From Rhizobium tumorigenes (GTDB lineage: Bacteria; Pseudomonadota; Alphaproteobacteria; Rhizobiales; Rhizobiaceae), in contig NZ_CP117256.1 of assembly GCF_003240565.2 (NCBI RefSeq), positions 496,001-560,000 of the forward strand: a DNA stretch of 64,000 nucleotides. Reading direction: 5' to 3'. The position numbers and the translations under genes are program-made. The notes beneath the pieces are model-generated. The model saw nothing but the letters and a program-made list of their open reading frames with translations. It had not been told where the DNA came from and searched no databases. Below are positions 1 to 19,401 of the stretch, one piece after another (within the stretch, counting starts at the first letter, position 1; every line of letters begins with the position of its first letter).

Positions 1-308
1 CCCTTGGCGGCCAGGAGATCGCGGCGCCGCCCAACCTGTTCGATTCACTGGTCGTCTTCATTCCGAGCGGAACGGAAGGCCCGCGCCTCCCGGGCATCGC
101 TACCCGATGGCAGCGCCTTCACAACGACGCGACGCAGTTTCCCCTCGTTCCACTGGGCTTGGAAGTCTTCGTGCGCGGCCGCGGCGCGCAAACCGTCATC
201 GATGTCGAGGCCACCTACGCCCGGAACGCCTTCTGCAGCGAAACCATCACCGAACTCCTTTCGCAGCTGGACAACACCATCCGCGATGCAGTCCAAGAGG
301 TCTGGTAA
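1..308 (+). CDS. NRPS condensation domain, C-terminal end (partial)
   Basis: The frame is open from the left edge (codons start at base 3) to a TAA just before the next NRPS gene, so only the last 101 codons of an upstream gene are present. They contain LFDSLVVFIPSG and then VIDVEATYARNAFCSE, the pattern of the closing part of an NRPS condensation domain, followed by the helix that usually ends such a domain. No adenylation or carrier signature is visible in this piece, so the protein appears to end with a C-like domain. It lies 5 bp from the next NRPS start on the same strand and is almost certainly in the same operon. The assignment to an NRPS is firm; whether the domain is catalytic cannot be judged without its N-terminal half. 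Confidence 0.75.
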   Translation, partial: LGGQEIAAPPNLFDSLVVFIPSGTEGPRLPGIATRWQRLHNDATQFPLVPLGLEVFVRGRGAQTVIDVEATYARNAFCSETITELLSQLDNTIRDAVQEVW

Positions 309-313
309 AATCC

Positions 314-3300
314 ATGAATTCGCGAATTGAACTCCTGCACCGACGGCTCGAGCAGAATGGCGTGAAACGCACGGCGATCCGGAAACGCCCGAACGCCGAT
401 GCGGCACCGCTATCGGACGCCCAGCACAGGATGTGGCTGCACCAGAAACTCCATCCCGCCAGCGGCGCCTACAATGTCTGCATCCGCATCGACCTTGCCG
501 GCGCTCTCGATGTGTCCCGGCTGCTCGCCGCGCTTGCCGCCGTAGTCGATCACCACGAAATCCTGCGCACCACCTATTCGACGGACGCAAAAGGCCAGCC
601 CTTCCAGCGAATTCACGCCCAATTGTCCCCTGAGGTGCATATCGTCGAACACGGCGACCCCGAGCGCGTGGCGCGCGACAGCGCCTGCGCGCCGTTCGAT
701 ATCGCCTCCTCCGGGCCGCTCCGTGCGCATCTGGTCACGATAGATGCCGCCAGATGGTCGCTGGTGCTGACGGTACATCATATCGTCTGGGACGGCGGAT
801 GCTTCGGTATTTTCAGTCGGGATCTCAGCCTTGCCTATCGTGGGCTGGCGATCGAGCCCCTGTCGATCCAGTATGCTGACATCACGGCGCATCGGAGCTC
901 CCCCAATTCCGACGCAGACCTCGAGGCACAGCTCAGCTACTGGCGTGAAACGCTGACGCCATTGCCGCCGGCTTTGCCCCTGCCTACCATCCAATCGTCC
1001 GGCCCCCGCACCAGCGAAAGGGCAAGCCGCCTGGATCGCGTCATGCCGACCGACTGCGCCACGGGCCTGCGCGCGGCCGCCGCCAGCCTCAAGACAACGC
1101 CTTTCGCCGTTTTCATCGCCGCCTATGCGCTCCTGCTCCATCGCTGGACCGGAGCATCCGATATCACCATCGGCACGACAGTCGCCAATCGGCATGAGCC
1201 GGGAAGCGGCGCGCTCATCGGCAACTTCGGAAACACGGTCCTGCTGCGTCTCGAAGTGTCTGGAGACGCAACGTTCCGCCAACTCGTCGCGCAGACGGCG
1301 CGTGTCGTGACAGACGCGGTCAGCCATGGCGACGTCTCCTTCGAACGGATCGTCTCCGCGCTCGCGCCTGTGCGCGAGGCCGGCCACGGCTACTTCACCG
1401 ACACGCTCGGCCTGTTCCTCGACCGCGACATCGGTGGTCCCGACCTGCCCGAGGTCGAGGTTCGATGGAGCAATGTGTTCAACGGCTCCTCTCCGTTTGC
1501 CCTGACCTTCCAGGGCTTTCTGACAGGCGACGCCCTGGAGGTGGAAGCGACGTTCCGCAGCGAGCTTTTCGCGACCGCCACCGTGCTCGACATGCTCGAC
1601 CACCTGGAATCGATACTGCTCGCGGCGACTGCCGACCCCGCGCAGCTTTGCTCGACCGTCAGCCATCTGCCGGCCCCGCAGCGTGACCGCCTTCTTCGGC
1701 TTTCCCGCGGAGCCGAGATCGATCGAAACCCGGTTTCCGTCCTCGACCACTGGCGCCGCCAGGTAAAGAGCAAGCCCTCGCGAATTGCGCTCGTCAGCGG
1801 CCCGGATCGTTTCCGTTTCTTCGAGATCGACGAACAGGCCAATCGACTGGCAGCGCACCTGATGGCGCGCGGTATCCGGGCGCAGGATGTTGTGGCTGTC
1901 GCTGCAAGCCGCGGATTGATCACCGTCGTCGCGCCGCTGGCGATCTGGAAATGCGGTGCGATCTTCCTCCCGCTCGACCCGCGCCATCCCGAAGCCCGCT
2001 TGCAGAAGCTCGTTCGTTCCGCAAATGCAAAACTCCTGATCTGCGATTTCGACGTCGCGATCGATAATCTGCCCGTCGTCTCCATCGATGCATTCATGGC
2101 TGCGGCAACCGAGCCTGCCATCGATCCCGGCCACAGCCCCCATCGGCTTGAAGCAGCCCATATCGGCTTCACATCGGGATCCACCGGCCAGCCGAAGGGC
2201 GTCGTGACCACACATGGCTCGCTGGCGGCGCGGACCGTCTGGGTGTCGGACCATTGGCGCGGGGGCGTGGGCGGCACCCGCCTTGCCAAGAGCGCACCCA
2301 CGGCGATCGATGCAACGGCAGAGCTCTGCGAAGCCTTCGTCACTGGCGAATACATCGTTCTTGCGACGGATGACGAAGCCAGGGATGCGGCAGCGCTCGC
2401 TCGCCTTCTGAAAACCCACGGCATAGGACACTTCATGGCGGTACCGGGGCTGATCGGGGCCGTCGCGATCGCCGCGCCGGACGTCATGTCCGACATGGAT
2501 CGGGTTCTCTCCACCGGCGAGCCCCTCCTTCCCGGCGTTGCGGCCTCCATCTACCGGACAGCCGAAAGCGTGCCGCTCTACAATTCCTACGGATGCACGG
2601 AAACCACCGGAGACGTCACGGCCGGAAGGATAAGCAGCAAAGATGCCGCAAACGGCGTCATATCGATCGGCCGGCCGCTCCCCGGGTCCTGCTGCTACGT
2701 GCTGACCGCAGATCTGACGCTGTCTCCGCCGGGCGCGCTCGGCGAACTCTATGTCGAAGGACAACAGCTCGCCCGCGGCTATCTTGCCCAGCCGGCATTG
2801 ACCGCGACCCGGTTCATTGCCAGCCCCTTTGCCGGGCACGACCGCTTGTACCGCACAGGGGATCTCGCTCGCTGGCGCGAAGACGGGCTGCTTGAGCTCG
2901 CCGGCCGCGTTGATGACCAGGTCAACATACGCGGCTACAGGGTAGAGCCCGACGAGACCGTCGCGGAACTTTATGCCGCCCCCGATGTGAAAGAGGCGGC
3001 CATTCTGGCGCGCAGGATCGGATCCACAATGGAACTCGTCGCCTATGTGTCGGGCGACGGCCTGCGACCGCAGGACGGGCCGAGGCTCCGCGCACGGCTG
3101 GCCGATCGCCTACCGGGCCCGCTTGTCCCGGCCGAGGTGGTCGTGCTGCCGTCATTGCCGCGGCTCGAGGGCGGCAAGATCGACCGGCAGGCCCTGCCGC
3201 GGGGGGTGGTCGCGCCGGATGTTTCATCGAGATCGCCGCGAAACGATCGCGAGAAAAATCTGACGCGCATCCTGGCGGAGCTTCTCGGCTGCGGGTCCGT

Positions 3301-4516
3301 CGGCATCGACGAGAACTTTTTCACGCTTGGCGGAGATTCGCTGATGGCCTTGTCCTTCGCGGCGTGCGCCAACGCTGCCGGATTCGAATTTCCGGCGGCG
3401 GCGGTGTTCCAGTATCCCACCGTCGCCCAACTGGTGGAGCAGCTCCCGCCATTGGTCGAAGAACAGGCGAAGCCCATCTCTCTTCCGGCGCAGGTACATC
3501 GCTTCCGGCTTTCCGGCTTGCCCCTGTCCGAATTCGTGACGTGGGAGCCACTTCGAGGTCCAGCCAAGCCCGACCGTTTGCGCGCGGCGCTGGCGGAAGC
3601 CATTTCGAGCCATCCGACGCTTCAACAGGGGATTGCCGTCAGGGGACGACTGTGGCGCGCCGCGCGGATGGCCGGGGCCGGGCGTGACGCCAAGGTCATC
3701 GAGATCGCGAGTTCCGACCCAGCCAGGGTGATAGAGGCGGCGCGATCGGCGATCGATATTGCCGCGGGCGCCGTGATTGCCGTAGTCCTCACCCCCGATG
3801 CCGCCCTGCTGGTCGCGCACGCCGCCGCGATCGATGGCCTGTCGCTGAGGCGAATAGCCGATGACATCTATAGACACCTTGCGGCGGAACACATGACGCC
3901 GACGCGCGCCGATCACGCGAGCGGTCGCGGTCAAGCCGCGATGCATCCTTTCGCGCCGGTTCCAGCAACCATCCACCACGACTGGCAATCGATCATTGAC
4001 CTGGGCCCGAAATGCCCATGGTGGGTCGGACCGGACGAGATCCTGTCAAAGGGACCTGATGTCAGGGTTAGGGCCGCGATGGACCTCGCCGCTGAAACTC
4101 TTCACATGCATGCCCTGCTGTCTGCTGCTCTCGATGTCTCCAAAGGCGATCTCGTCGTTGCGGATGTCGAGGTCGAGCCCGACGGGATCGGCCCACTTCT
4201 TGCGGCGCCCGTGCTGGCGCGCGCTGGCGCCCGGGACGCACCCGGCGACGGGGGCTTGTATATCGCCTTTATCGATCGCCGCAGGCCTGTCGCGGGTGGC
4301 CCCGGCCTTCTCGTACGGCGTACCGTCACGCCGCGATCGTGGCCGGACGCCGGCATGGTCCGGGGTACGGATCGCCTTTACCGGATTGTCGCATCCTGGC
4401 AGGAGATCGAAGGCCAAACCGAGTTGGAGATCGCGGCCGGCGATGCGGACATGGCGCGGGCACTGCTGAACGCGTGGATCGCTGCAATCTCACGTCAGGA
4501 TTCAGACCGTGCGTAG
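314..4516 (+). CDS. Non-ribosomal peptide synthetase, C-A-T plus degenerate C domain
   Basis: A 1400-residue siderophore-type NRPS. The ATG at 314 was chosen because it sits 5 bp after the preceding stop and starts the typical leader MNSRIELLHRRLEQNG; the frame is open further upstream but overlaps the previous gene. Domains: condensation (about 30-460) with HHIVWDG at 155-161, catalytic second His intact; adenylation (about 490-960) with FTSGSTGQPKG from 619, YRTGDLARW, GRVDDQVNIRGYRVEPDE and GGKIDRQALP; carrier (about 985-1050) with LGGDSL, phosphopantetheine Ser1009. The last ~350 residues look like a shortened condensation domain whose HHxxxDG is HAAAIDG (1169-1175), so the catalytic His is Ala1170. 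The enzyme would activate one amino acid and join it to an upstream chain. The substrate is not called: the pocket begins IDATAE, an unusual form. The end overlaps the next gene by 8 bp. Confidence 0.93.
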   Translation: MNSRIELLHRRLEQNGVKRTAIRKRPNADAAPLSDAQHRMWLHQKLHPASGAYNVCIRIDLAGALDVSRLLAALAAVVDHHEILRTTYSTDAKGQPFQRIHAQLSPEVHIVEHGDPERVARDSACAPFDIASSGPLRAHLVTIDAARWSLVLTVHHIVWDGGCFGIFSRDLSLAYRGLAIEPLSIQYADITAHRSSPNSDADLEAQLSYWRETLTPLPPALPLPTIQSSGPRTSERASRLDRVMPTDCATGLRAAAASLKTTPFAVFIAAYALLLHRWTGASDITIGTTVANRHEPGSGALIGNFGNTVLLRLEVSGDATFRQLVAQTARVVTDAVSHGDVSFERIVSALAPVREAGHGYFTDTLGLFLDRDIGGPDLPEVEVRWSNVFNGSSPFALTFQGFLTGDALEVEATFRSELFATATVLDMLDHLESILLAATADPAQLCSTVSHLPAPQRDRLLRLSRGAEIDRNPVSVLDHWRRQVKSKPSRIALVSGPDRFRFFEIDEQANRLAAHLMARGIRAQDVVAVAASRGLITVVAPLAIWKCGAIFLPLDPRHPEARLQKLVRSANAKLLICDFDVAIDNLPVVSIDAFMAAATEPAIDPGHSPHRLEAAHIGFTSGSTGQPKGVVTTHGSLAARTVWVSDHWRGGVGGTRLAKSAPTAIDATAELCEAFVTGEYIVLATDDEARDAAALARLLKTHGIGHFMAVPGLIGAVAIAAPDVMSDMDRVLSTGEPLLPGVAASIYRTAESVPLYNSYGCTETTGDVTAGRISSKDAANGVISIGRPLPGSCCYVLTADLTLSPPGALGELYVEGQQLARGYLAQPALTATRFIASPFAGHDRLYRTGDLARWREDGLLELAGRVDDQVNIRGYRVEPDETVAELYAAPDVKEAAILARRIGSTMELVAYVSGDGLRPQDGPRLRARLADRLPGPLVPAEVVVLPSLPRLEGGKIDRQALPRGVVAPDVSSRSPRNDREKNLTRILAELLGCGSVGIDENFFTLGGDSLMALSFAACANAAGFEFPAAAVFQYPTVAQLVEQLPPLVEEQAKPISLPAQVHRFRLSGLPLSEFVTWEPLRGPAKPDRLRAALAEAISSHPTLQQGIAVRGRLWRAARMAGAGRDAKVIEIASSDPARVIEAARSAIDIAAGAVIAVVLTPDAALLVAHAAAIDGLSLRRIADDIYRHLAAEHMTPTRADHASGRGQAAMHPFAPVPATIHHDWQSIIDLGPKCPWWVGPDEILSKGPDVRVRAAMDLAAETLHMHALLSAALDVSKGDLVVADVEVEPDGIGPLLAAPVLARAGARDAPGDGGLYIAFIDRRRPVAGGPGLLVRRTVTPRSWPDAGMVRGTDRLYRIVASWQEIEGQTELEIAAGDADMARALLNAWIAAISRQDSDRA

Positions 4517-5993
4517 TGGCGACCTCAATACGCCGCTGGCAACACATCTGGCACAATTCACGCGCCATGGACGTTGCCACAATTTTCACGCGGTGCCGTG
4601 GCCAGCCATCCTTGAGGCTGCATCCCCGGAATTCGCACAGCAGTATCGCGCAATACTCGGCGCCGACCTTTCGCGGATAGACGCAAGTTGGTCGGGCAGC
4701 GCCGTTGATTCGTTCTTCACACCCCACGGGCCGCTTGCCGACGCACAACAAAGGACGGCCAGGGCATTCGGCGCGGATGCAACGTTCTTCGGCACCAGCG
4801 GCACGACGACCAGCAATCAAATCGCCCTGGAATCTCTCCGCTTTCCCGGCGCTGACGTGCTGATAGATTGCACAGCTCACCAATCACTGCTCTTTGCTGC
4901 CGAGGGAATGAACGTCGTGTCCTCGCCTTGCGCCGGCACGGTGGAAAACCCGTGCATCGACATTGAGGAAACGGCGAGGCTGCTTGCGCGACGCGCCTCC
5001 GAGGGTCGACCATTCGATATCCTGGTGCTTTCAGCCACAAGTTACGATGGTCGAAAGCTGCGTCTTGATCGCGCTCTGCCGGTCATGGTCGAATCGTCTC
5101 CGACGACGGCAATCGTCATCGATGAAGCCTGGTCGGCACTGCACGCGTTTGTTCCTTCGCTTGTCGATTCCACCGCCCTTGCCGTTGCTTCCCGTCTGCC
5201 ACTGCTCGCACCCGTCCTGGTGACGCATTCGGCGCACAAGACGATGGCAGCGCTGCGGCAGGGTTCCTACCTTCACGTCCTCGGCTCTTCCTCCGATATC
5301 GAGAAAGTGCGCCTGGCGCGGTATCGCATTCACACCACCTCCCCGTCATGGCCGATCCTGACCTCGCTCGATCTTGCGCGCGCGCATGCCGAGCAATTCG
5401 GCGCCACCGAGTTTGCCAATGCCGTCGTCATCAAGACGAAACTCGAAGCAATGCTGCGCCAAGACCCTGTCACCGCCGACATTCTGGCGTCCCCGTCGCT
5501 TGGCCCCTACTACGAGCTTGATCCGCTGGTGTTATGCCTTCTTGTCGGGCCGCGCTCGCGTATCATCAGGGATCGGCTCTTAAGCGAACACCACGTGCTC
5601 ATCACGGTAGCCGGCGATCATCTCGTCGTGCGTCTGCATTTTGGCGTTACCGAGTTCGATCTGCTTGCGCTGATGAAAGGCCTGTCGCTGCTGGCGTCGG
5701 AATTCAGATCGCCACCACCCGCTCCACGACCGGCCGGCCCGCAGGATTTCGTGCCCGTCATTGGCTCGCATAGCCGGAACTATATCATTCCCTATCCTCC
5801 CGGCGTTCCGCTAGCGAGGCCTGGAGAGCTCTGGACGGACCGGCACGCCAAGGCGCTTACACAAGAAAGAGCGCGAGGGTCTGAAATCTATTGCCTGGCA
5901 GCAGGCGGCGGCGGCGCGCGTCGCGCCACGGGTGCGGTCCCTGTGGCGCTCGACCCGATAGTCAGTCCGGCCACCGAGGACGAGCCCATGTGA
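4509..5993 (+). CDS. PLP-dependent Orn/Lys/Arg decarboxylase-family enzyme
   Basis: A 494-residue fold-type I PLP enzyme of the Orn/Lys/Arg decarboxylase class. Visible signatures are the GTSGTTTSNQ loop that binds the cofactor phosphate, DEAW (the PLP-pyridine Asp), and the lysine motif HSAHKTMAALRQGSY with the Schiff-base Lys244. The length and the small C-terminal domain fit the shorter bacterial decarboxylases rather than the ~710-residue inducible enterobacterial ones. The GTG start lies inside the end of the NRPS gene (8-bp overlap), so translation is coupled and the product is presumably made in step with the synthetase. By inference it supplies a diamine such as putrescine or cadaverine, or a decarboxylated amino acid, as a siderophore building block. 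The family assignment is strong; the substrate is unknown. Confidence 0.85.
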   Translation: MRSGDLNTPLATHLAQFTRHGRCHNFHAVPWPAILEAASPEFAQQYRAILGADLSRIDASWSGSAVDSFFTPHGPLADAQQRTARAFGADATFFGTSGTTTSNQIALESLRFPGADVLIDCTAHQSLLFAAEGMNVVSSPCAGTVENPCIDIEETARLLARRASEGRPFDILVLSATSYDGRKLRLDRALPVMVESSPTTAIVIDEAWSALHAFVPSLVDSTALAVASRLPLLAPVLVTHSAHKTMAALRQGSYLHVLGSSSDIEKVRLARYRIHTTSPSWPILTSLDLARAHAEQFGATEFANAVVIKTKLEAMLRQDPVTADILASPSLGPYYELDPLVLCLLVGPRSRIIRDRLLSEHHVLITVAGDHLVVRLHFGVTEFDLLALMKGLSLLASEFRSPPPAPRPAGPQDFVPVIGSHSRNYIIPYPPGVPLARPGELWTDRHAKALTQERARGSEIYCLAAGGGGARRATGAVPVALDPIVSPATEDEPM

Positions 5994-6134
5994 CCGAGGC
6001 TTTTTGCGACAGTTTGCCAGCAACCGCGAAGCCGCCCTTCATCCCATGCGACGCCTAGCCGCAAAGACGACTGGCCAGCCGGGTCTCGACACCCCATTCG
6101 ACGGCCTTCGCCGTGATCAGACAGGAGAAATGAA

Positions 6135-9100
6135 ATGATGTTTTCGGATCGCAAGCAGCAGCTTTTGCTGCAACGGCTCGCGGGCGCAGGTCTTCTGCAC
6201 TCGGAGCAATCCGTCGCCAACGATCGCCCGCGGCGCGAAGAGCGCGACGGGCCCGCTGTCCTTTCCAACGCGCAACGGCGGATGTGGTATCACTCCCAGC
6301 TTGCCGAAGGGTCCGCGGCCTATAATTTCTGCCTCGTGCTCCGGCCGGACGAAGACGCATCCTTTTCCGTCCCGGCTCTGACCGCAGCGCTGGAGCAGGT
6401 AATGCTCAGACACGAGATATTACGGACGAGGTACCGGACCGGCGCCGACGGTGCGCCGCAGCAGGTCATCGAGCCCTATCTTGCGCCGGACGTGACGGAG
6501 ATCGATCTGACGCCGGCATCGAACGAGTTTGCCGGGACGATCGAGGAAAGGCTGGACGACCTCGCATGCCGGGCCCGCGACCAGCCCTTCGATCTAAAGG
6601 TTGATGCGCCCCTGCGCGCGCTGGTGGTGCGAAGCGGCGCGGCTGTTATCGCCATCATCCTCGTCCTGCCCCACATCGCCGGAGACGGTGGGTCATTCGG
6701 AATCGTGCTCGCCGATCTGGAGCGGGCCTATGGGCATGGCGCCGGATCGGATGCGTCGCCGCCTGCGTCCAGCATCCGCTATTCGGACTATGCCTTGTGG
6801 GAGCAGCGGCATCTGGGCGATCCCAAAACACCGGCGAGCCTGCATGCCCGCCAACTGCGCTTCTGGGAGACCCAGCTGGCCGACCTTCCCGCGGAGATCC
6901 CGCTTCCCTTCGACCGCCCTCGCCCGACTACACCGAGCTTCTCCGGCAGCCAGGTGAGGGAATGGCTCGGGGAAGGGTTGTCGGCAGCCCTGCGGCGAAT
7001 GGCCGGAACCAACGGCGGTACGCCACTTGTCGCGCTACAGTGCGCCGTCGCCGTTGCTCTCGGCCGCGTGGGCGCCGGACAGGACATTCCCCTCGGCGCC
7101 GCAGTCGACCTACGCCATGATTCCTCGCTCGACCAGCTCGTGGGCTTCTTCAGCAATACGGTGGTCGTGCGTGTCGATCTAGGGCGGGATTCCGAATTCT
7201 CGGAGCTGTTCCAACGCGTCCATGACACCGGCCTCAAGGCCCTCGACAACAGCGATGCACCCTTTGAAAGCGTCGTCGAGCACATCAATCCGCCGCGCGC
7301 CGTCGCGCGAAATCCGCTCTTCGGCGTCATGGTGACCGCCACCAGACCCTGGCCCGTTCTGCGGTTCGGCGATACGACCCTGCGTCTCGAGGAGCCGCGG
7401 CAGACCCAAGCGAAGTTCGATTTGACCTTCGTCGTCCATGACGAAGGCGCGGGCGGGCGGATCGGCGTGTCGCTGCTCTATGCCCGCGATCTCTTCGATG
7501 AAACCACGGCGCGACATCTGCTCGATCTGGTGATCGGCATCCTCGGGCAGGCAGCCCATCACCCACAGTTGCGGCTATCGCAATTCGCGGAATTCGGACA
7601 CCGGTACTTGACCCCGCAAGCCTCCTCCCTTGCAACGATACTGGCGGCGCGTCAGGGAGCCTCCTCCACTACGATGCGCTCCATCCAGCTGGTCGACGGC
7701 GTTCGGCAAGCCGATGTCGTTGCGGCCCTTGTCGGCCTGCTCGGGCGGCACGACGCGCTGCGCCTGCGCCGCGACGCGGAAAACGGACAATGGGACCTTG
7801 CCGCCACCGCCCGGCTCTGGGACGCCCCTGTGCTGCTGGAACAGCCGGCAACCGCCGAGGATGCGGAGCGATTCGTCGCCTGGCTCGAGGTCCCTCCGGG
7901 AAGCGATTCCGCCACGCCCAAGCGCCTTCTGAAGCTGCAGGCGCCGGGGCGATGGATAGATGACGAGTCGTGGAGCGTGCTGCTGGCGGAGCTCTCTCCA
8001 CTGCGGTCGGATGGCAGGCAAACGGTCCCAAACAGGGCCGGATCCTACGCCGACTGGTTGACCCGCACCGCCGACTTCGCGGCGGAGACGGACATGGTCG
8101 CCCATACCGAATCCTGGCTCGACATGCTGGACGAGGCCGCCGATCGCGCGCCGACGGGCGAATTTTCCGACAATTCCTTCATATCGACCGAGCGCCGCAT
8201 GGCACTCCCTGGCCTCGGGGAGAGGCCCGATCCGGCGGCGCTCCGGGTTGCCGCGATGGCGGCCCTCATCTGGACAAAGCGGCGGGCTGCCGCTCCGCTT
8301 CTGCTTGAGATCGATGAAGCCGATCGAGATCGCTTCGCCAACACCACCACGGGAACCGCCGCCGGATGGTGCAGACGACGTTTTCCTCTTCTCGTAGCGG
8401 CTCCGCAGGAAGGCGCCGCGGAAAGCCTGCTTTCGCCGCAGCGCATCGAAAGCTTCATCCGCGCCGCCGGTCATGTTCTCGGGCTCGATAACCCCGAGCC
8501 GGTGAGCGGCGACTTCGCCGCAAGCTACTTTCTCGCGCGCGACGTCAGCGCCGATGTGGCCGGCGCGCTCGATGATACGCCCCGACCCGACCTGACGCTT
8601 GCCATCATCACCACCGACGAGGGCGATGCACCGATCTCGCCTGAAGCTGATATCCACGAGGAAGGAGAGCGCTGGACGATCAGGATCGACCTGCGACGCA
8701 AGCAGGCATGGCTTGGCATTCGTGCGCGCCGCAGCGCCTCCGAAATCGACGCCCTCATCGACGCGTGGCGGGGCGTCCTTGCGGAATTCCTGGCAGCGGC
8801 CGCTCCCACAGATAGCGGCGGACGATCCGAAGACGATGGAATCCTGGAATTGTCCCCCTGGGATCTGCGGCGTCTCGAGGAATCCTTCGGCACCGTGCGC
8901 GCGGTGCTGCCGCTCTCGCCTCTCCAGGAAGGCCTGCGCTTTCACGCCGTCGGCGCAGCGGAAGGCTCGAACGAGGTCTACATATCCCAGACCTCGCTGG
9001 ATCTCCTTGGCGAAATCGACGCCGATCGTCTTCACCGGGCCGTCGAAAAGGCGATCAAACTGGCGCCGACCGTTACCGCGGGCTTCGCGGAAATCGGCGG

Positions 9101-12100: not shown

Positions 12101-13298
12101 CGACATTGCCGTCCCCGATCATGGGGGCATTGCGCCACGGCTTGCTCTGGCAACCATCAACTCCGTGCTGCTCACCGGCGCCGCTGGCTTCATCGGCTCC
12201 TTCATCCTGGCCGAGTTGCTGCGGAAAAGCGACGCCAGGATCCATTGCCTAGTGCGCGCAAGGGATGAGGCGGGTGCCACGGCGCGGATACGCCAGTCGT
12301 TGACCCTGTATGGCTTGTGGGACGATGTCTTCGAGCATCGGATCGTCGGGCTTCCCGGCGACCTGTCGCAGCCTCGTCTCGGACTGACTGAGGAGACGTT
12401 CGCCGCGCTTACCGACGACCTCGATGTCATCATCCACAATGGCGGTGCGACGAACGAATTCGATCCATATTCGCGCCTCGCGGCGATCAATGTCGGGGGC
12501 GCGAAGGAGATCTTGCGGCTGGCAGCCGGGGGAAACCGTGTCACGCCTGTCCATTTCGTCTCCACGGCTTCGGTCGTCGCGCGGCGTGGGGCAAATCCCC
12601 CCGTCATCGGGGAAAGCACCCGCCTGCCCATCGGCGAGGTGGAGAGTACCGGATATGTCCAGAGCAAGTGGGTGGCCGAAGAGCTGATGCACGCGGCCGC
12701 GGCAAGGGGCCTGTCCGTCACCATCCATCGGCCCGGTCGCGTCAGCGGACACACCGTGACGGGAGCCTGCAGCACCAGCGTCGGCTTCTGGCATTTCATC
12801 CGGTCGATGCTTGTGCTTGGGGCAGCGCCCGCCTTGCGATCCGATCGCCTCACCCTTGCGCCGGTCGATTACGTGGCCAAGGCACTCGTTGCGCTTGTCG
12901 AGCGCGGGGATCCCGGCGCCACCTATCATCTCTCCAACCGCATGCAGACCAGCATCGGCGCCATTGTGAAGGCGGCGCAAAGGGCTGGCCATCATCTGGA
13001 AATCATGCCCTTCGAGGCTTGGCGCGAGCGCCTGGCACAGGCGGTGGAAGAGCGGACGAGGCGGGACGACGACTCCCTGTCGTCCATCATGCTCCTCGTC
13101 GAGCACCTCGACAAGTATGACGGTCCCGCAGTGGAATCAGCGCTCGGCCAGGAAGCAGTCGAGGCCGCTTTGGCCGGTCTGGACATTGCGCCGCCGCCGA
13201 TAACGGATGCGGTGCTCGACCGCTACGTCGAACATTTCATCGCCACGGGCTTCTTTCCTGCCGCCGATAATGGGCGGGCAAGGTCTGCCCTTGCCTAA
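6135..13298 (+). CDS. NRPS, C-E*-C-A-T-reductase, terminal module
   Basis: A 2387-residue NRPS started at an ATG with GGAG 7 bp upstream. Domain order: condensation (about 35-480) with LPHIAGDG, where the first motif His is Pro179 but the catalytic His180 remains; an epimerization-like domain (about 490-900) whose motif reads PGRWIDDESW (604-613), so both His are lost; a second condensation domain (about 920-1330) with the PLSPLQEGLRFH entry typical of C domains that follow E domains and HHILLDG at 1057-1063; adenylation (about 1370-1850) with FTSGSTGEPKG from 1523, NLYGPTEYT and YRTGDLCRW; carrier with GGHSL, Ser1922; thioester reductase (about 2005-2380) with TGAAGFIG from 2014 and YVQSK (Tyr2174, Lys2178). 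The reductase should release the chain as an aldehyde or alcohol using NAD(P)H. There is no thioesterase. The pocket starts FDASWEQLLWLLAGH, one residue shorter than the GrsA pattern; the substrate is not called. Confidence 0.94.
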   Translation: MMFSDRKQQLLLQRLAGAGLLHSEQSVANDRPRREERDGPAVLSNAQRRMWYHSQLAEGSAAYNFCLVLRPDEDASFSVPALTAALEQVMLRHEILRTRYRTGADGAPQQVIEPYLAPDVTEIDLTPASNEFAGTIEERLDDLACRARDQPFDLKVDAPLRALVVRSGAAVIAIILVLPHIAGDGGSFGIVLADLERAYGHGAGSDASPPASSIRYSDYALWEQRHLGDPKTPASLHARQLRFWETQLADLPAEIPLPFDRPRPTTPSFSGSQVREWLGEGLSAALRRMAGTNGGTPLVALQCAVAVALGRVGAGQDIPLGAAVDLRHDSSLDQLVGFFSNTVVVRVDLGRDSEFSELFQRVHDTGLKALDNSDAPFESVVEHINPPRAVARNPLFGVMVTATRPWPVLRFGDTTLRLEEPRQTQAKFDLTFVVHDEGAGGRIGVSLLYARDLFDETTARHLLDLVIGILGQAAHHPQLRLSQFAEFGHRYLTPQASSLATILAARQGASSTTMRSIQLVDGVRQADVVAALVGLLGRHDALRLRRDAENGQWDLAATARLWDAPVLLEQPATAEDAERFVAWLEVPPGSDSATPKRLLKLQAPGRWIDDESWSVLLAELSPLRSDGRQTVPNRAGSYADWLTRTADFAAETDMVAHTESWLDMLDEAADRAPTGEFSDNSFISTERRMALPGLGERPDPAALRVAAMAALIWTKRRAAAPLLLEIDEADRDRFANTTTGTAAGWCRRRFPLLVAAPQEGAAESLLSPQRIESFIRAAGHVLGLDNPEPVSGDFAASYFLARDVSADVAGALDDTPRPDLTLAIITTDEGDAPISPEADIHEEGERWTIRIDLRRKQAWLGIRARRSASEIDALIDAWRGVLAEFLAAAAPTDSGGRSEDDGILELSPWDLRRLEESFGTVRAVLPLSPLQEGLRFHAVGAAEGSNEVYISQTSLDLLGEIDADRLHRAVEKAIKLAPTVTAGFAEIGGRMVQVVPADVKVPWRFERAADEDRARLIADQEYGARFDAARPPLIRFALIGMPDAGAGGLNRLLLTAHHILLDGWSIRLLYRLIVQLYLDPAGAAPPPSFGRYLRWFTGQNMADAETVWHQLLAGSEATILYPAARGLEASVEHSHERARSIDAGTTTALSRLARSASTTLSTVLELAWGTLLMRLSGASNVVFGNVVSGRPADIEQVSEIIGLLFNTVPVRVEAAGPQSVKAALGALHAQKAVSLRHSHVNLTRLQQIAGHSPLFDTLFSVQNLPVFESPRNQAIRIGHASVRDATHYPLSMSVTPTGETIDLRLMFRSDIVGREQAEAIIHAYEHILNAFARDADLPLLAVNALPETSLLLPRSISGENMEIGSLSVADLLVKQALATPDDNAVTSGDARLTFDQLATAAHRLAHLLQARGVWPEHRVALLLPRSELMIVALFGVFAAHAAYVPIDPETPVNRVRSMLDQSQPTVILSVSEMTALLPPEYANDPRVVLLDDPATKAELERLPNTLPESERPAGLRHLAYIIFTSGSTGEPKGVAVPYIGLTSMFINHRKAIFAPVLAAQGGRRLKIAHTTSFAFDASWEQLLWLLAGHEVYVIDDELRRDPDRLLPLFDREEIDAFDVTPTYGGYLLEHGLLERDRPQGRDGTGVVFVSLGGEAVGQDLWTRLREAPGVGGYNLYGPTEYTINALGADLAENSEPTVGRPIANTDAHILDPGLHPAPVGVTGELYLGGVGLARGYVGRPAMTADRFVANPFGNAGERIYRTGDLCRWRPDGGIDYLGRSDNQLKIRGYRIEPAEVENALVAQTGVKRAAVVGNTTPDGSVRLIAYVVSDAQVADADSLRERLRLQLPSYMVPAVIVFVEDLPRTINGKLDIASLPNPATAEVRTALPINETERIICDLFASVLDRRPIGRFDDFFESGGHSLLTVRLVGLLRDAIGPGINVRQIYDHPTPAALALSLGTTHGIAPVQAGSADADRETALMLADLVLPADIAVPDHGGIAPRLALATINSVLLTGAAGFIGSFILAELLRKSDARIHCLVRARDEAGATARIRQSLTLYGLWDDVFEHRIVGLPGDLSQPRLGLTEETFAALTDDLDVIIHNGGATNEFDPYSRLAAINVGGAKEILRLAAGGNRVTPVHFVSTASVVARRGANPPVIGESTRLPIGEVESTGYVQSKWVAEELMHAAAARGLSVTIHRPGRVSGHTVTGACSTSVGFWHFIRSMLVLGAAPALRSDRLTLAPVDYVAKALVALVERGDPGATYHLSNRMQTSIGAIVKAAQRAGHHLEIMPFEAWRERLAQAVEERTRRDDDSLSSIMLLVEHLDKYDGPAVESALGQEAVEAALAGLDIAPPPITDAVLDRYVEHFIATGFFPAADNGRARSALA

Positions 13299-14131
13299 TC
13301 GGTGCGATCGGACCTCTGCGCCGTCGACGGACGTGGACGGCGCAGGGACTGGAACAGCACAGCCGAGCCGGCGCGCGGTTCCAGCATATGGCGATCCAGG
13401 ATCGCCCATGTCCTGGCAAATCCGCCGTCGGTCTCGAAATCGATCCGGATCTCCGCGTTTTTGGGCATGCATTCGTCCAGCGACTGCACAATCGAAAAGC
13501 GCAGACGATCATCGTCGCCGATACCGTTGAAGATGGCGGCGTCGAACCCGAAGAATTGCCGGACGACGGGATGCAATGCCTTGAAGATGGTTTCCTTGGC
13601 GGAAAAAATCAGGGTAGCCAAGAGAGCGGCGTCAAACCTCGTCTGCCAAAGAACCAGGTTGCGTTCCTCCGCGGACAGCGCCTCTTTCAAGATCGCGTCG
13701 AGAGCAGCGCCCGTCGCCACCTTTTCCACATCGATGCCCACCAGTCTATTTTCATCGGCAACCAAGAGGCAGACGCATTTCCCGTGCGAATGGCTAATCG
13801 ACCCGGATATCCCGATCGGCCAGACGGGCGCGCCCTGGTCACCAATGGCGATCGGAACGTTGCCGCGACGGAGGCACTCCAGCGCGGCGCGGGCGAGAAC
13901 ACGCCCCGCCAGAAATTCGCCTTGGCGTTTCGCCACCGCGCCCGCCAGCCTTGAGGGAAAGTCGATATCGCAGGCCACGAACAGCGACGGGCTGTAGGCT
14001 TCGACTTTGTAGTCCGCCTCCAGAGCGATAAGCCTGTCGGTCTCCATGCCGAAGACAGCGATCGCGCTCAGGAAGGGGTCTGCACATGCCGGCAGCTGAG
14101 AGAGATATCCCGATACAGGCTTCACATCCAT
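13295..14131 (-). CDS. 4'-phosphopantetheinyl transferase, EntD type
   Basis: A 278-residue EntD-like transferase that would convert the NRPS carrier serines to the holo form using coenzyme A. Motifs in order: RQGEFLAGRVLARAAL, P-W-P-G-SISHSHG (CoA and acyl-carrier contact), GIDVEK (Mg-binding Asp and Glu) and FSAKETIFKAL (the catalytic WxxKE-type block). It is convergent with the large NRPS gene and their 3' ends overlap by 4 bp, so the two genes share a junction and presumably end in each other's terminators. Its place in the siderophore locus suggests it is dedicated to these synthetases. The C-terminal tail of about 30 residues is rich in Arg and Pro and is not part of the family core. 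Confidence 0.92.
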   Translation of the reverse strand: MDVKPVSGYLSQLPACADPFLSAIAVFGMETDRLIALEADYKVEAYSPSLFVACDIDFPSRLAGAVAKRQGEFLAGRVLARAALECLRRGNVPIAIGDQGAPVWPIGISGSISHSHGKCVCLLVADENRLVGIDVEKVATGAALDAILKEALSAEERNLVLWQTRFDAALLATLIFSAKETIFKALHPVVRQFFGFDAAIFNGIGDDDRLRFSIVQSLDECMPKNAEIRIDFETDGGFARTWAILDRHMLEPRAGSAVLFQSLRRPRPSTAQRSDRTD

Positions 14132-14167
14132 GTTTCCGTCATCACGCAGCGTCCCGCCGGAATACCG

Positions 14168-14818
14168 CTACGAAGTCCTGTTGCCACCCACGCCGTTGAT
14201 GAGCCAGCGCCATGTCCTGTCAAAATGCGCTTCCACATCTTCACGTGCGCTGAATTCATTGCTGCCCATCATTGCCGCGGCCGTCGGCAACGCGACCATA
14301 CAGTGAATGAGATGGTTGGCGATATCATTTGCAACCCCCGCGCAGATCGCCCCGGCCTCCTGGGCTTCCTCCACCGTCCTTATCAACTTCGCCATGATCG
14401 GATCGGGCTGCGGCGGTATCGGTGCGGTCTTTTCGAACACGACGGTTTCGCTAAAGGTGATCCGCTTCAGCGCGATCAGCTCCGGCTCCATGTTGACGTG
14501 CAGAAGCTGCAGCAGCAGGGACTGCAGCCGCTTGAGAGGATCACCAGTGACCAGCGGCAGTTCCGCGATCTTCGCGACGGCACTCCTGTGGGCGTGCTCG
14601 ACCACGGCCTCGAACAAGGCCACCTTCGAGGAGAACCGGCGATAGACGGTGTCCTTGCCCGCGCCGCAATGGGCCGCGACCTGCTCCATGGACGTGCCCG
14701 CAAACCCCCTGCCCGCGAAAAGCTCCGTTGCGGCAAGAATGATCCGCTCGGCCGCCATATCCTGGAACGCTTTCGGGGGACGGCCCGGCCGCACCACTGC
14801 ACTCACACTTTTTTCCAT
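14168..14818 (-). CDS. TetR-family transcriptional regulator
   Basis: A 216-residue repressor-type protein. The basic leader RPGRPPK is followed by a TetR helix-turn-helix (about 20-65): IILAATELFAGRGFAGTSME, then AGKDTVYRRFSSK, which is the recognition helix. The C-terminal part is helical and carries the ligand and dimer region. It is transcribed away from the receptor gene, and the gap between their starts is the likely operator region for both. It lies 36 bp upstream of the phosphopantetheinyl transferase on the same strand, so the two may form an operon. A TetR protein in a siderophore locus may sense the siderophore, an intermediate or an unrelated ligand; the sequence does not say. Confidence 0.9.
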   Translation of the reverse strand: MEKSVSAVVRPGRPPKAFQDMAAERIILAATELFAGRGFAGTSMEQVAAHCGAGKDTVYRRFSSKVALFEAVVEHAHRSAVAKIAELPLVTGDPLKRLQSLLLQLLHVNMEPELIALKRITFSETVVFEKTAPIPPQPDPIMAKLIRTVEEAQEAGAICAGVANDIANHLIHCMVALPTAAAMMGSNEFSAREDVEAHFDRTWRWLINGVGGNRTS

Positions 14819-14887
14819 TGCCTTTTCCTGCGTTTAACCCCGTCCGACTATTGTGAGAACATCCCTCTGACATCAACAGATAAAAGT

Positions 14888-14902
14888 TGAGTGATGCATT
14901 CA
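14888..14902. promoter_or_regulatory. Candidate iron-responsive operator (IRO), TGA-N9-TCA
   Basis: The intergenic gap between the TetR and receptor genes contains TGA, nine bases, TCA in a partly palindromic setting (TGAGTGATGCATTCA). This is the core reported for the IRO box linked to the iron regulator RirA in Rhizobium and Agrobacterium. It sits about 76 bp upstream of the preferred receptor start. A motif this short occurs by chance, so position and context carry most of the weight. Confidence 0.4.
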
Positions 14903-14978
14903 TATTAACTGGACAGGACGTACCCGTTTGATTATTAGATGTACCATAATCGGATTGCTCGGGCCATGGGGAACGTTC

Positions 14979-17129: not shown

Positions 17130-17135
17130 CGAACG

Positions 17136-18260
17136 TTGAAGATCGATAGACGTCAATTCTGCGCCTCCATCGCCGCCGGCGGCATCCTGCTGGGCGCAAG
17201 GCCGCTCCTGGCGGCGGAACCGGTCACGGTCGTCGACATAGCCGGGCGCACGGTGCATCTCCCGGCGCCGCCCAGACGTATCATTTTGCTGGAAGGCCAC
17301 GATCTGCTGACAATGTCGCTCCTCCATCCAGATCCCGCAGCGCTCGTCGTGGGTTGGGCGGCCGTCGACAGGATCGACAGCAAGATCCTGGAAACGCGAC
17401 TGCGGAACAATCACGCGCTGGCGGAGGTCGGCAAGCAGGGGCCCGACACCGTGTCGCTGGAAGGCGTAATTGGCCTCATGCCCGACCTCATCGTCACCAC
17501 GGAGTTCATGACGCCGGGTGGTGATGGGAATCCGCTGCTGGAGCGTCTGAAGCTGCTCGATATTCCCGTCGTTTTCAGCGATGCCTCGAGCAACGGACCG
17601 GCCGATGGCCAATCGCCCGATCCGATCGCACAACTCGAAATCTCGATGCGAATGTGGGGCACCCTTCTCGGTAAAACGGCGAAGGCGGACGCGTTCACAG
17701 CCTTCGTGAGACGGCAGATGGCAGGCATCGCCGCACGGGTTTCCCGCAAACCGGCCGTGACGACCTATCTCGAAGTCCAGTCCACGCTCGATGATTGCTG
17801 CTGGGCCGCGGGGCGCAAGGTCTGGGGCGAATTGCTGGCCTTGGCCGGCGGTGCGCCGCTGCCAGGCATCACCGCGCCGTGGTTTCAGAAGCTGTCGCTC
17901 GAATACCTGCTATCCACCAGCTTCGACGTCTACATCGCCTCAGGCGGCGGGTGGGCGTCCGGCAGCCGACCTGCGATCGGTCCGGCGATCGACCCCAAGC
18001 TGGGCCAGGGGGGATTGCAGCGCCTGATCGACGGCCGGCCCGGCTTCGATGCCTTGCCAAGCGTTCTCGCGAGGCGCGTGCACGGGATCTGGACCGGACT
18101 GATCACCAATCTGCCTCTCAACATCCTGTTCGTGGCGCAAGCGGCGCAATGGCTTCATCCCGAAGAATGCGCCGACCTCGACCCAGCGGCGATCCTCGAC
18201 AGCATCAACACCCAGTTCGCGGCCTTTCCGATCGAGGGACCTTTGTGGGCCTCGATATAA
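17136..18260 (+). CDS. Iron-siderophore ABC transporter substrate-binding protein
   Basis: A 374-residue periplasmic binding protein of the FepB/FhuD class (cluster 8 SBP). The N-terminus MKIDRRQFCASIAAGGILL is a twin-arginine (Tat) signal, and a Cys within it (C9) makes a lipoprotein possible, though no clean lipobox is present. The mature part has VDIAGRTVHLPAPPRRIILL and LEGVIGLMPDLIVTTEF, characteristic of the first lobe. The start is a TTG, the only sensible one given the signal, 6 bp after the receptor stop. It would collect the ferric siderophore from the receptor for an inner-membrane ABC importer, but no permease or ATPase gene lies in the window. It must therefore use a transporter encoded elsewhere. 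Confidence 0.9.
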   Translation: MKIDRRQFCASIAAGGILLGARPLLAAEPVTVVDIAGRTVHLPAPPRRIILLEGHDLLTMSLLHPDPAALVVGWAAVDRIDSKILETRLRNNHALAEVGKQGPDTVSLEGVIGLMPDLIVTTEFMTPGGDGNPLLERLKLLDIPVVFSDASSNGPADGQSPDPIAQLEISMRMWGTLLGKTAKADAFTAFVRRQMAGIAARVSRKPAVTTYLEVQSTLDDCCWAAGRKVWGELLALAGGAPLPGITAPWFQKLSLEYLLSTSFDVYIASGGGWASGSRPAIGPAIDPKLGQGGLQRLIDGRPGFDALPSVLARRVHGIWTGLITNLPLNILFVAQAAQWLHPEECADLDPAAILDSINTQFAAFPIEGPLWASI

Positions 18261-18264
18261 GCCT

Positions 18265-19401
18265 ATGGAGCCAGTCCGGATGTTACCGACTTCGTTGAAG
18301 ACATATAGAGCCACCGCCGTGGTGCGATTTCCCGGGATCGACGCGTACGTGGATCCGATCCTTGAGTCGATCGCCACCCACGACATGGTCGTGGAGGCGG
18401 CGGCGGGGATACATCATTTCCGGTCGTCTTTCGGCCATGCCACGCTCGAAGTCCTCGAGGACGGCTTCCGGCTGACGGCCGAGGCTCCGGACGCCGGCGG
18501 TCTCAACCGGGTGAAACATGCGCTGGTCGGGCCGATCGGCTTCATCGCCGCCCGCGAGACGATGGACATTCTATGGGAGGGCGATCATGCGGAGCCTGCT
18601 TTGCCCGACGATCTACGGATTCTGCAGGTGACGTCGATCGAGGACATTGCTCCTCGCCTCCGCCGCATGACGTTTCGCGGCGAAAATCTGGAGCGCTACG
18701 ATCGCTCCGATCAGTTGCACTGTCGACTTATTTTTCAGCCCCGCGGCATCAGCGAGCCCCTGTGGCCCATGCTCGATCACCGCGGCCATGTTGTCTGGCC
18801 GGACGCCGGCGCGGTGCCGACGCGCGTCTACACCATCCGGCATATCCATGCCGCCCGGCGGGAAATCGCCGTCGACTTCGCCCTTCACTCAAACCCCGGC
18901 CCCGCAACGCAATGGGCCATGGACGCCAGACAGGGCGACGTCGTCGGCATTCTGGGTCCGGCCGCGCACGGGCCGAAAGATGCCGGGTTCTATGTGCTGA
19001 TCGCGGATGAAACAGGATTGCCGGGGGTTGCCCGGATCGTTGAAACCCTGCCTGCCACGGCAACCGGCCTTGCATTCATAGAGGTGGATTCCGATGCCGA
19101 CGAATTGCCGATGCGCTATCCCGAGGGGATGTCGATCGTCTGGCTGCACAGGAACGGCGCCGGCCCCGGCACGACGACCTTGCTGCAGGATGCCCTACGA
19201 AGGGTAGAGTGGCCCGACAATGCGGACAGGACCTTCGTATGGGGTGGATGCGAACATAAGGCGTTCAGCGCCATCCATCGGTATCTGAAAACAGAAGTCG
19301 GGCTGCCGAGAGACCGCTTCCTCCTGTACTCCCACTGGCATCGGTCACTCAGCGAGGAAGAAATCATCGCAATTGGCGGCAAGGCATATCTCCCAGAGTA
19401 A
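18265..19401 (+). CDS. Siderophore-interacting protein (ViuB/YqjH-like ferric reductase) with DUF2218 domain
   Basis: A 378-residue cytoplasmic flavoprotein that would reduce the imported ferric siderophore and free the iron. The N-terminal ~95 residues match DUF2218 (RFPGIDAYVDPI, HHFRSSFGHATLEV), commonly fused to this family. The rest is the SIP core: a FAD-binding barrel with TRVYTIRHI and DFALHSNPGPATQWA, then the NAD(P)H-binding part with WGGCEHKAFSAIHRYLK and DRFLLYSHWHRSLSEEE, the typical family ending. The gene starts 4 bp after the binding-protein stop and closes the uptake operon; a hairpin with a T-tract follows. Confidence 0.93.
   Translation: MEPVRMLPTSLKTYRATAVVRFPGIDAYVDPILESIATHDMVVEAAAGIHHFRSSFGHATLEVLEDGFRLTAEAPDAGGLNRVKHALVGPIGFIAARETMDILWEGDHAEPALPDDLRILQVTSIEDIAPRLRRMTFRGENLERYDRSDQLHCRLIFQPRGISEPLWPMLDHRGHVVWPDAGAVPTRVYTIRHIHAARREIAVDFALHSNPGPATQWAMDARQGDVVGILGPAAHGPKDAGFYVLIADETGLPGVARIVETLPATATGLAFIEVDSDADELPMRYPEGMSIVWLHRNGAGPGTTTLLQDALRRVEWPDNADRTFVWGGCEHKAFSAIHRYLKTEVGLPRDRFLLYSHWHRSLSEEEIIAIGGKAYLPE

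Follow-up and report, generated by a model that had tools for sequence, protein, structure and literature searches.

A putative plasmid-borne mixed-ligand siderophore locus of Rhizobium tumorigenes with a decarboxylase coupled to one NRPS gene

Gene content and regulation of the locus

We analyzed a 64,000-nucleotide stretch of Rhizobium tumorigenes DNA (the window), in which positions 1-19401 hold the downstream 60% of a siderophore locus of about 32 kb and 17 genes. Nine of these genes begin upstream of the window, in contig G000:C2 from about position 483,640 (locus L005), and this upstream part holds an N-monooxygenase, MbtH, a salicylate synthase, a salicyl-AMP ligase, a stand-alone threonine adenylation (A) domain and an ArCP-Cy-PCP protein. 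The locus lies on a plasmid and, judged by its genes, looks able to make and take up a mixed-ligand siderophore. Within the window, we mapped the following features:

1..308, plus strand: 3' end of a stand-alone condensation (C) domain gene, the ninth upstream gene (455 aa, whole gene at L005 16941-18308; active site HHIIWDG)
314..4516, plus strand: NRPS1 (1400 aa), with C 395-1693, A 1754-2785, PCP 3260-3442 and a tail 3479-4513
4509..5993, plus strand: short-form Orn/Lys/Arg decarboxylase (PLP, fold I), Lys244 codon 5238-5240, overlapping NRPS1 by 8 bp
6135..13298, plus strand: NRPS2 (2387 aa), with C1 6258-7583, domain X 7611-8879, C2 8889-10229, A 10254-11342, PCP 11817-11999 and thioester reductase (R) 12165-13253
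13295..14131, minus strand: 4'-phosphopantetheinyl transferase (PPTase)
14168..14818, minus strand: TetR-family regulator, candidate owner of a shared operator
14913..14937, plus strand: third, weaker copy of an operator/promoter element, with 5 mismatches to ACGGGACCGTCCCGTTTGATTATAA
14928..17129, plus strand: TonB-dependent siderophore receptor, FhuA/FoxA-like and hydroxamate-type, below the equivalog cut-off
17136..18260, plus strand: periplasmic binding protein, ferrichrome/ferrioxamine-like (172.6 bits, below the cut-off of 374)
18265..19401, plus strand: FAD-dependent siderophore-interacting protein (SIP, iron release)

Every feature named in a preliminary description of this DNA is present, and its assignment of a siderophore locus stands. 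The gene order that it gave was confirmed for all genes, with the addition that the PPTase and TetR genes sit on the minus strand, which it had left unstated, and the 8-bp overlap that it reported is exact. Its remark that the product has no match that could be named also holds within the databases searched, where we found no close characterized cluster; no NRPS gene reached an NCBIfam equivalog cut-off among the matches listed, and no title or abstract opening in the literature searched, which leaves most subscription journals outside, described this cluster. The genes most informative on the product, those for salicylate, the oxazoline and N-hydroxylation, lay outside that description's view. 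Within the window, scans for Rfam families and tRNAs gave 0 hits, and no relative was found on viral contigs.

A palindromic element precedes three operons, in two exact copies (G000:C2 483455 and 490569) and the weaker one listed above; in 20 block shuffles of 20 kb, the best chance matches had 7-10 mismatches. A search of the window that allowed at most 1 mismatch did not bring up the palindrome core. The element is conserved in rhizobial copies of the cluster. Its owner would be the cluster's TetR, which probably represses all three operons through this one palindromic operator (candidate site ACGGGACCGTCCCGT). Because the element covers position 14928, the true start of the receptor probably lies further in, at 14979-15015. 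The N-terminus of the binding protein is twin-arginine (DRRQFCASI), suggesting Tat export.

R. tumorigenes 932, Rhizobium sp. B230/85, and the bean-associated R. etli 8C-3 (L007) carry the whole cluster. Clusters resembling it were also seen in further rhizobia, in one Rhodobacteraceae, and in two actinobacteria (Sciscionella and Rhodococcus). Prevalence counts across genomes are lower bounds, as few candidates were scored per genome, and domain maps cover 8 of 80 loci. No N-monooxygenase or salicylate synthase match was found within 55 kb in Sciscionella; homologous clusters therefore need not share one product.

Aryl, oxazoline and hydroxamate functions

The salicylate synthase scored 405.1 bits against TIGR03494 (cut-off 325.15). 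The aryl-AMP ligase is nearest to the salicylate-AMP ligase 5WM2, which we take to be CahJ (624.6 bits), with identical LACPG and GLLN stretches, whose residues presumably mark salicylate; a 2,3-dihydroxybenzoate ligase follows as the second PDB match (573.3 bits). A catechol product is disfavored by this ranking and by the absence of a DhbA/DhbB family from the ORFs scanned, yet among NCBIfam models the enzyme scores best against the one for 2,3-dihydroxybenzoate ligase (600.2 bits, under its cut-off of 723.55). The Cy protein, with the motif DMIAADAVS, is closest to dihydroaeruginoic acid synthetase 7EMY, and the stand-alone A domain carries the code DFWNIGMVHK, which we take to specify threonine, in 3/3 alphaproteobacterial copies compared. 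The locus hence contains the salicylate synthase, salicyl-AMP ligase and ArCP-Cy combination of salicylate-oxazoline/hydroxamate clusters.

The amino-acid N-monooxygenase expected of mixed-ligand clusters was likewise found, as read from the R. tumorigenes 932 copy (L008), which scored 406.7 bits against MbtG, 327.9 against KtzI, and 253.6 against L-ornithine 5-monooxygenase 3S5W. An amine-type monooxygenase (putrescine/cadaverine/histamine) is disfavored, since matches of that type score far lower: 148.4 bits for 6XBB, presumably an amine-type monooxygenase, 109.2 for the desferrioxamine enzyme, and 89.6 for putrescine hydroxylase. An amino-acid-type enzyme is a poor fit to N-hydroxylation of a free diamine, which counts against the pathway that we favor below.

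The NRPS2 A domain has the code D-A-(E/W)-D-S-G-L-I-N-K, identical in 5/5 clusters compared; the code ends in GLINK, as we assume hydroxy-ornithine A domains to do. The NRPS2 reductase domain scored 279.8 bits against TIGR01746 (cut-off 213.35), with the motifs TGAAGFIG and YVQSK intact, and would allow an alcohol end. The amine end envisaged in the preliminary description was not borne out, as a Pfam scan of cluster proteins brought up no aminotransferase family. Its linking of the decarboxylase to reductive release was weakened: Rhodococcus yunnanensis keeps the decarboxylase in a cluster whose NRPS ends in a thioesterase-like domain, so that decarboxylation and reductive release are separable and a decarboxylase tied to the latter is disfavored.

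Several domains appear degenerate. Domain X may be a degenerate C/E-like domain, which we treat only as a lead: its AF2 model is poor (pLDDT 53.4, pTM 0.38), and profile comparison with C domains was weak (Prob 25.3, 28.1). The 345-aa tail of NRPS1 weakly resembles a C/E-type N-lobe and lacks the HHxxxDG histidine pair; relatives of this tail also occur in Rhizobium sp. AP16 and R. paknamense. Such domains without catalytic histidines in NRPS1 and NRPS2, together with an NRPS2 C1 motif that reads PHIAGDG and an 829-aa protein without an A core, could indicate that the locus is decaying or silent. We consider this highly implausible: gene order is the same in the R. etli and Rhodobacteraceae copies, with long open frames in the mapped parts, Sciscionella keeps the NRPS2 domain order C1-X-C2-A-PCP-R, and the rhizobial conservation of the shared element also argues against decay. 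Moreover, in each of the 8 alphaproteobacterial copies examined, the protein without an A core comes with a separate A-domain gene.

The decarboxylase and its NRPS partner

The decarboxylase scored 119.1 bits against the Pfam family OKR_DC_1 (cut-off 27). We aligned the query with 33 relatives, taken from 120 listed of 427 found; H124, D205, A207, W208, S241, H243, and K244 (the PLP-site residues His, DxAW, and SxHK) are invariant in 34/34 sequences. In a second alignment, the cut ends were picked by hand. The C-terminal domain family OKR_DC_1_C reached 21.2 bits, under its cut-off of 24.2, with the YPPGVPL-PGE stretch kept, and PF03711 is annotated in some relatives. The AF2 model (pLDDT 87.3) retrieved only OKR decarboxylase-family chains at Foldseek PDB ranks 1-40. 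By its residues and predicted fold, the protein is thus a genuine short Orn/Lys/Arg-type enzyme.

This enzyme is coupled to one NRPS gene, NRPS1. Its start overlaps NRPS1 in 8/8 alphaproteobacterial copies, four of them near-identical (8 bp in seven, 11 bp in L020); an overlap is possible in Rhodococcus with one of five candidate starts, while the Sciscionella decarboxylase lies about 7 kb downstream of NRPS2, not adjoining NRPS1. Since the genome loci were found via the decarboxylase, its presence there is by construction, and the only independent check is a plasmid search with NRPS1. There, 7 plasmid records match 80% or more of the NRPS1 length, and exactly these 7 also carry the decarboxylase at 78% identity or more.

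We place the NRPS1 start at 314, guided by the annotated L008 relative and by the distance from the gene upstream, the frame itself being open to base 2. Its A-domain code is D-A-E-M-L-T-S-G-D-K, with position 239 read by hand from the alignment, and matches no code known to us. Copies from Rhizobium, R. etli, the Rhodobacteraceae, Sciscionella, and Rhodococcus retain the pattern D[AG]E-M-[LV]-T-[SA]-G-D-K, with residue 239 and the entire Rhodococcus row read by hand; the code reading left out three rows without motifs, namely the Sciscionella and Rhodococcus Cy-module A domains and the Rhodococcus NRPS1 A domain, the last being the one read by hand. The domain keeps Asp235, the mark of an alpha-amino acid, which disfavors a decarboxylase that makes beta-alanine for NRPS1, a role considered because cahuitamycin uses beta-alanine.

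These observations make it plausible that the decarboxylase supplies a dedicated decarboxylated building block. It could instead be a passenger that makes polyamines for general use, the siderophore being made without it, as its more distant short-form relatives in other settings (Streptomyces, Rathayibacter, Azospirillum) might suggest. The NRPS1 overlap in all eight copies and the decarboxylase in all seven plasmid records with full-length NRPS1 make this very unlikely. That the distant relatives, too, adjoin activating enzymes suggests a dedicated biosynthetic role; these AMP-binding enzymes look acyl- rather than amino-acid-specific, in a comparison of 12 of 80 loci plus L009 picked because the match adjoined the decarboxylase.

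Alternatively, the enzyme may serve NRPS1 and not release, preparing or altering something used with the unusual NRPS1 A domain, and no free diamine would be incorporated. It might, for instance, decarboxylate an amino acid that is N-hydroxylated or attached to the chain, or have drifted to another PLP reaction. The overlaps, the shared plasmid records, the conservation of the unusual NRPS1 code across lineages, and the retention of the decarboxylase where a thioesterase-like domain replaces the reductase are all consistent with this reading, which we regard as possible but doubtful. The enzyme shares its catalytic residues and its fold with ordinary decarboxylases of basic amino acids, the Sciscionella gene stands away from NRPS1, and in fimsbactin, acinetobactin, pseudomonine, and alcaligin biosynthesis an amino acid decarboxylase makes an amine building block, all of which count against it.

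Proposed pathway and related siderophores

Our preferred reading, which we consider probable, is a horizontally spread, plasmid-borne pathway to a mixed-ligand salicyl-methyloxazoline/hydroxamate siderophore, with an N-hydroxy-ornithine or -lysine end and release by the reductase. Salicylate would come from the salicylate synthase, with an isochorismate synthase helping, and would be adenylated and loaded onto the ArCP of the ArCP-Cy-PCP protein. Threonine would be loaded in trans by the stand-alone A domain, and Cy would close the hydroxyphenyl-methyloxazoline. The MbtG/KtzI-like monooxygenase would make N-hydroxy-lysine or -ornithine, to be activated by the last NRPS2 A domain.

As the C domains (four plus Cy) outnumber the amino-acid A domains (three), some C domains would acylate acceptors without cis A loading. 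One acceptor may be the N-hydroxy group, giving a hydroxamate without an acyltransferase, a family not found in the cluster; another may be a soluble diamine, the decarboxylase product of lysine, ornithine or arginine. The lone C domain has 37 PDB matches at E ≤ 1e-8, the best being Txo2 and Txo1 and none named VibH, and is therefore not a clear case of a diamine-using domain. The reductase would free the chain as an aldehyde, or as an alcohol upon a second reduction, and the receptor, Tat-type binding protein, and SIP would import the siderophore and release its iron. What the sequences show directly is the gene content, the intact domains, the conserved A codes, the coupling of the decarboxylase and the shared element; the linkage of the units, the use of a diamine, the owner of the operator and the final structure are inferred.

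A broader extension, rather unlikely in our estimate, is a siderophore family common to rhizobial plasmids, one Rhodobacteraceae, and actinobacteria. Here the NRPS-coupled decarboxylase would supply a surplus C domain with a diamine or with an N-hydroxy amino acid that has been decarboxylated, and the N-hydroxy-ornithinal freed by the reductase would cyclize through its own hydroxylamine, giving a cyclic nitrone or a hemiaminal end. Reductase and thioesterase release domains would have been exchanged between lineages, with NRPS1 and the decarboxylase retained.

Mycobactin and nocobactin pathways share with this locus a salicylate synthase, ArCP-Cy, an MbtG-like monooxygenase, and MbtH; unlike them, it ends in a reductase, and no ketosynthase family or polyketide module was found in the cluster proteins scanned. 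Vibriobactin, agrobactin, fimsbactin, and acinetobactin resemble the predicted pathway in their amine building block and methyloxazoline, the latter two also in having a decarboxylase and an N-hydroxylase. They differ in their catechol starter, whereas here we found an amino-acid-type monooxygenase, a reductase end, and neither a VibH-named match nor an acyltransferase family. Myxochelin MxcG has a similar C-A-PCP-R terminal module, though NRPS2 scored 682.3 bits against NF038078 over 924-2375, far under the equivalog cut-off of 2300; myxochelin chemistry involves a catechol and an aminotransferase, in contrast to the salicylate-oxazoline predicted here and the lack of an aminotransferase family.

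Closest in predicted structure are the actinobacterial salicyl/catechol-oxazoline plus N-hydroxyornithine siderophores cahuitamycin, kineochelin, and kasichelin, alongside which amychelin and gobichelin are named (PMC4757757, PMC13238742, PMC12305651). According to these papers, cahuitamycin and kineochelin share the salicylate synthase and salicyl-AMP ligase, a Cy-made oxazoline is a further common feature, and kineochelin and kasichelin have a threonine methyloxazoline and terminal N-hydroxyornithine like our predicted product. By the same papers, release differs from the reductase here, being by a hydrolase (proposed) for cahuitamycin and by TE-linked cyclization (proposed) for kineochelin. 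Our locus is further set apart by its tandem C domains flanking a degenerate domain, its threonine A domain encoded on its own, its decarboxylase for basic amino acids, and its TonB-dependent uptake. In the main text of each of the three papers, "decarboxylase" is a word with 0 occurrences.

Orphan siderophore clusters are common, with 619 gene-cluster families (93%) reported to lack a reference cluster in a 2026 survey (PMC12971057), so the lack of a match is not surprising in itself. With the reading proposed here, one such orphan locus would gain a specific structure class, in a pathway that appears to travel on plasmids among tumor-associated and bean-associated rhizobia and in which a short-form OKR decarboxylase is tied to a single NRPS gene.

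Extent and surroundings of the cluster

The genes named in the preliminary description are all real and follow the order it gave, with the PPTase and TetR genes on the minus strand. The cluster is cut by the edge of the window (bases 496,001-560,000 of contig C2, in a 5.98 Mb genome), and its remaining genes were recovered from 38 kb of upstream sequence. The parts discussed here are as follows (L005 and L006 are own-genome stretches upstream; other positions are those of the window).

L005 ~5644-7023: N-monooxygenase (NMO)
L005 7023-7268: MbtH, placed via the annotated copies in R. etli 8C-3 (L007) and R. tumorigenes 932 (L008)
Also upstream: salicylate synthase, alpha/beta hydrolase, aryl-AMP ligase, isochorismate synthase, stand-alone A domain
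Upstream of the window: ArCP-Cy-PCP protein of 829 aa, of whose A domain only the C-terminal subdomain is left
Starting upstream, 3' end at 1-308: lone C domain
314-4516: NRPS1 (C domain n1C, A, PCP, 345-aa tail)
4509-5993: decarboxylase
6135-13298: NRPS2 (C domain n2C1, degenerate domain X, C domain n2C2, A, PCP, thioester reductase R)

Just past the cluster (20008-21551) lies a PIN-domain (VapC-like) gene followed immediately by a phage-type integrase. This pair recurs in R. tumorigenes 932, where a VapB is also annotated, and is not listed beside the B230/85 and 8C-3 plasmid copies; the surroundings of the cluster therefore differ. Further on, a Tox-PAAR-like gene (23093-24787) has an equivalent in R. 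tumorigenes 932 that runs on into DUF2169 and TssI/VgrG of type VI secretion. Upstream of the cluster we found ORC-CDC6-like and PRTase-CE genes (L006 13174-15078 and 18406-19653; L005 1-1569, where the ORC-CDC6-like match is slightly below cut-off).

Predicted structure of the siderophore

The molecule most likely starts with a salicyl-methyloxazoline, as judged from the salicylate synthase, the aryl-AMP ligase, a threonine code and the likeness of the Cy domain. The synthase scores above its equivalog cut-off (405.1 versus 325.15), the code of the stand-alone A domain is that for threonine (DFWNIGMVHK), and the Cy domain has its closest match in dihydroaeruginoic acid synthetase. The ligase matches the salicylate-AMP ligase 5WM2 best and shares with it residues that we take to be salicylate-type, although its best NCBIfam model is, below cut-off, a DHB ligase.

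With the R. tumorigenes 932 copy as query, the NMO was nearest to MbtG (406.7 bits), KtzI (327.9) and L-ornithine 5-monooxygenase (253.6), and scored much lower against three amine-hydroxylating-type enzymes (148.4, 109.2 and 89.6). The code of the NRPS2 A domain, which precedes the reductase, ends in GLINK and is kept in all five clusters compared. The reductase domain carries the motifs TGAAGFIG and YVQSK and passes TIGR01746. The receptor and the binding protein are similar to proteins of hydroxamate uptake, at scores below the equivalog cut-offs.

The cluster has three amino-acid A domains for a total of five domains of the condensation type (Cy, lone C, n1C, n2C1 and n2C2). Identities of 30-35% relate the lone C, n1C and n2C1 to one another, with n2C2 more distant. 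No member of the acetyl- or formyltransferase families was found among the cluster proteins scanned. The surplus C domains would acylate the N-hydroxy group and possibly also a diamine. The NRPS1 A domain reads D-A-E-M-L-T-S-G-D-K, its position 239 hinging on gap placement (A by script, E by eye), and we know of no matching code.

The cluster carries the genes typical of salicyl-oxazoline/hydroxamate siderophores, as known for cahuitamycin, kineochelin and kasichelin (PMC4757757, PMC13238742, PMC12305651). The end resembles that of myxochelin, yet scores below the MxcG cut-off. The product stays unassigned, as first proposed: the literature searched, PDB and NCBIfam held no characterised close match.

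The decarboxylase and its distribution

The decarboxylase is a short-form enzyme of the Orn/Lys/Arg (OKR) class (PF01276, 119.1 bits; OKR_DC_1_C slightly below cut-off). Among PDB sequences it matches arginine, lysine and ornithine decarboxylases best, along with a protein labelled 'probable amino acid decarboxylase', and a Foldseek search of the PDB with its AF2 model (pLDDT 87.3) returned OKR decarboxylase-family chains at all ranks from 1 to 40. His124, Asp205-x-Ala-Trp and Ser241-x-His-Lys are kept without exception in the 34 sequences aligned.

The 8-bp overlap of its start with the end of NRPS1, noted at the outset, is exact in the window and, counting the window, stands in seven of eight alphaproteobacterial copies (11 bp in the eighth, L020, an uncultured Rhodobacteraceae), which amount to fewer than eight independent cases since the window, L008, L010 and L019 copies are near-identical. 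Seven plasmid records in the collection carry NRPS1 across 80% or more of its length (75-99% identity), and these coincide with the seven that have the decarboxylase at 78% identity or more. In Rhodococcus, one of five candidate decarboxylase starts gives an ATGA overlap; there, a thioesterase-like domain (VCLHPAGGSSWPF...GWSFGG) comes after C-C-A-PCP, and a methyltransferase is added. The suggested tie between the decarboxylase and reductive release is thus weak, because the decarboxylase survives this swap of reductase for a thioesterase-like end.

Plasmids of R. tumorigenes 932 and of five Rhizobium sp. strains from blackberry and blueberry carry copies 97.8-99.4% identical to the enzyme, which is rare in genome samples, where counts are lower bounds. 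It occurred in its own genome and one other among 200 relatives, in its own and one 33% relative in the family sample (394 genomes), and in 6 of 385 genomes of the class sample, five of these matching over only ~225 residues at 28-30%. The Rhodococcus genus sample gave 1 of 37, the cluster genome itself. The NRPS1 tail was seen in its own genome only (1 of 394); among 17 protein clusters of tail relatives, the named sources are Rhizobium, Agrobacterium or a Brucellaceae bacterium.

The cluster was present at four of 80 decarboxylase-family loci from named genomes (L017, Agrobacterium cavarae; L018; L019; L020), and longer flanking sequence revealed homologous clusters around those of Rhodococcus yunnanensis (L022) and Sciscionella marina (L023). 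The Sciscionella NRPS2 has the same order, C-X-C-A-PCP-R, in a 2359-aa frame, with an A domain 66-68% identical. Most remaining loci show the decarboxylase alone, and some have an adjoining AMP-binding enzyme or another NRPS. Decarboxylase relatives paired with an AMP-binding enzyme of acyl-specific appearance occur in Azospirillum (L009 14872-18906, where that enzyme is fused to an EamA-type transporter) and at Streptomyces loci (e.g. L025), and apparently form a dedicated pathway.

A palindromic element shared by the siderophore operons

The element ACGGGACCGTCCCGTTTGATTATAA occurs exactly twice genome-wide at up to 3 mismatches (reversed control, 0). Both copies are exact (contig C2, 483455 and 490569), one ahead of the NMO operon, the other ahead of the NRPS operon, whose first gene encodes the threonine A domain. 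A third, weaker copy with 5 mismatches lies upstream of the receptor (14913-14937). The palindrome core by itself has no match in the window when 1 mismatch is allowed. Mismatches per site were 0, 4 and 6 in L007, 0, 0 and 5 in L008, 0, 1 and 5 in L010, 5 and 5 in L017, 2 and 7 in L018, and 0 and 5 in L019. Twenty shuffles gave best sites of 7-10 mismatches, and the Rhodobacteraceae and actinobacterial stretches 9-11; with 6 and 7 mismatches, the receptor sites of L007 and L018 reach or approach what shuffling yields and depend on their position. On the simplest reading, this palindromic element of three siderophore operons is a candidate operator of the cluster-specific TetR.
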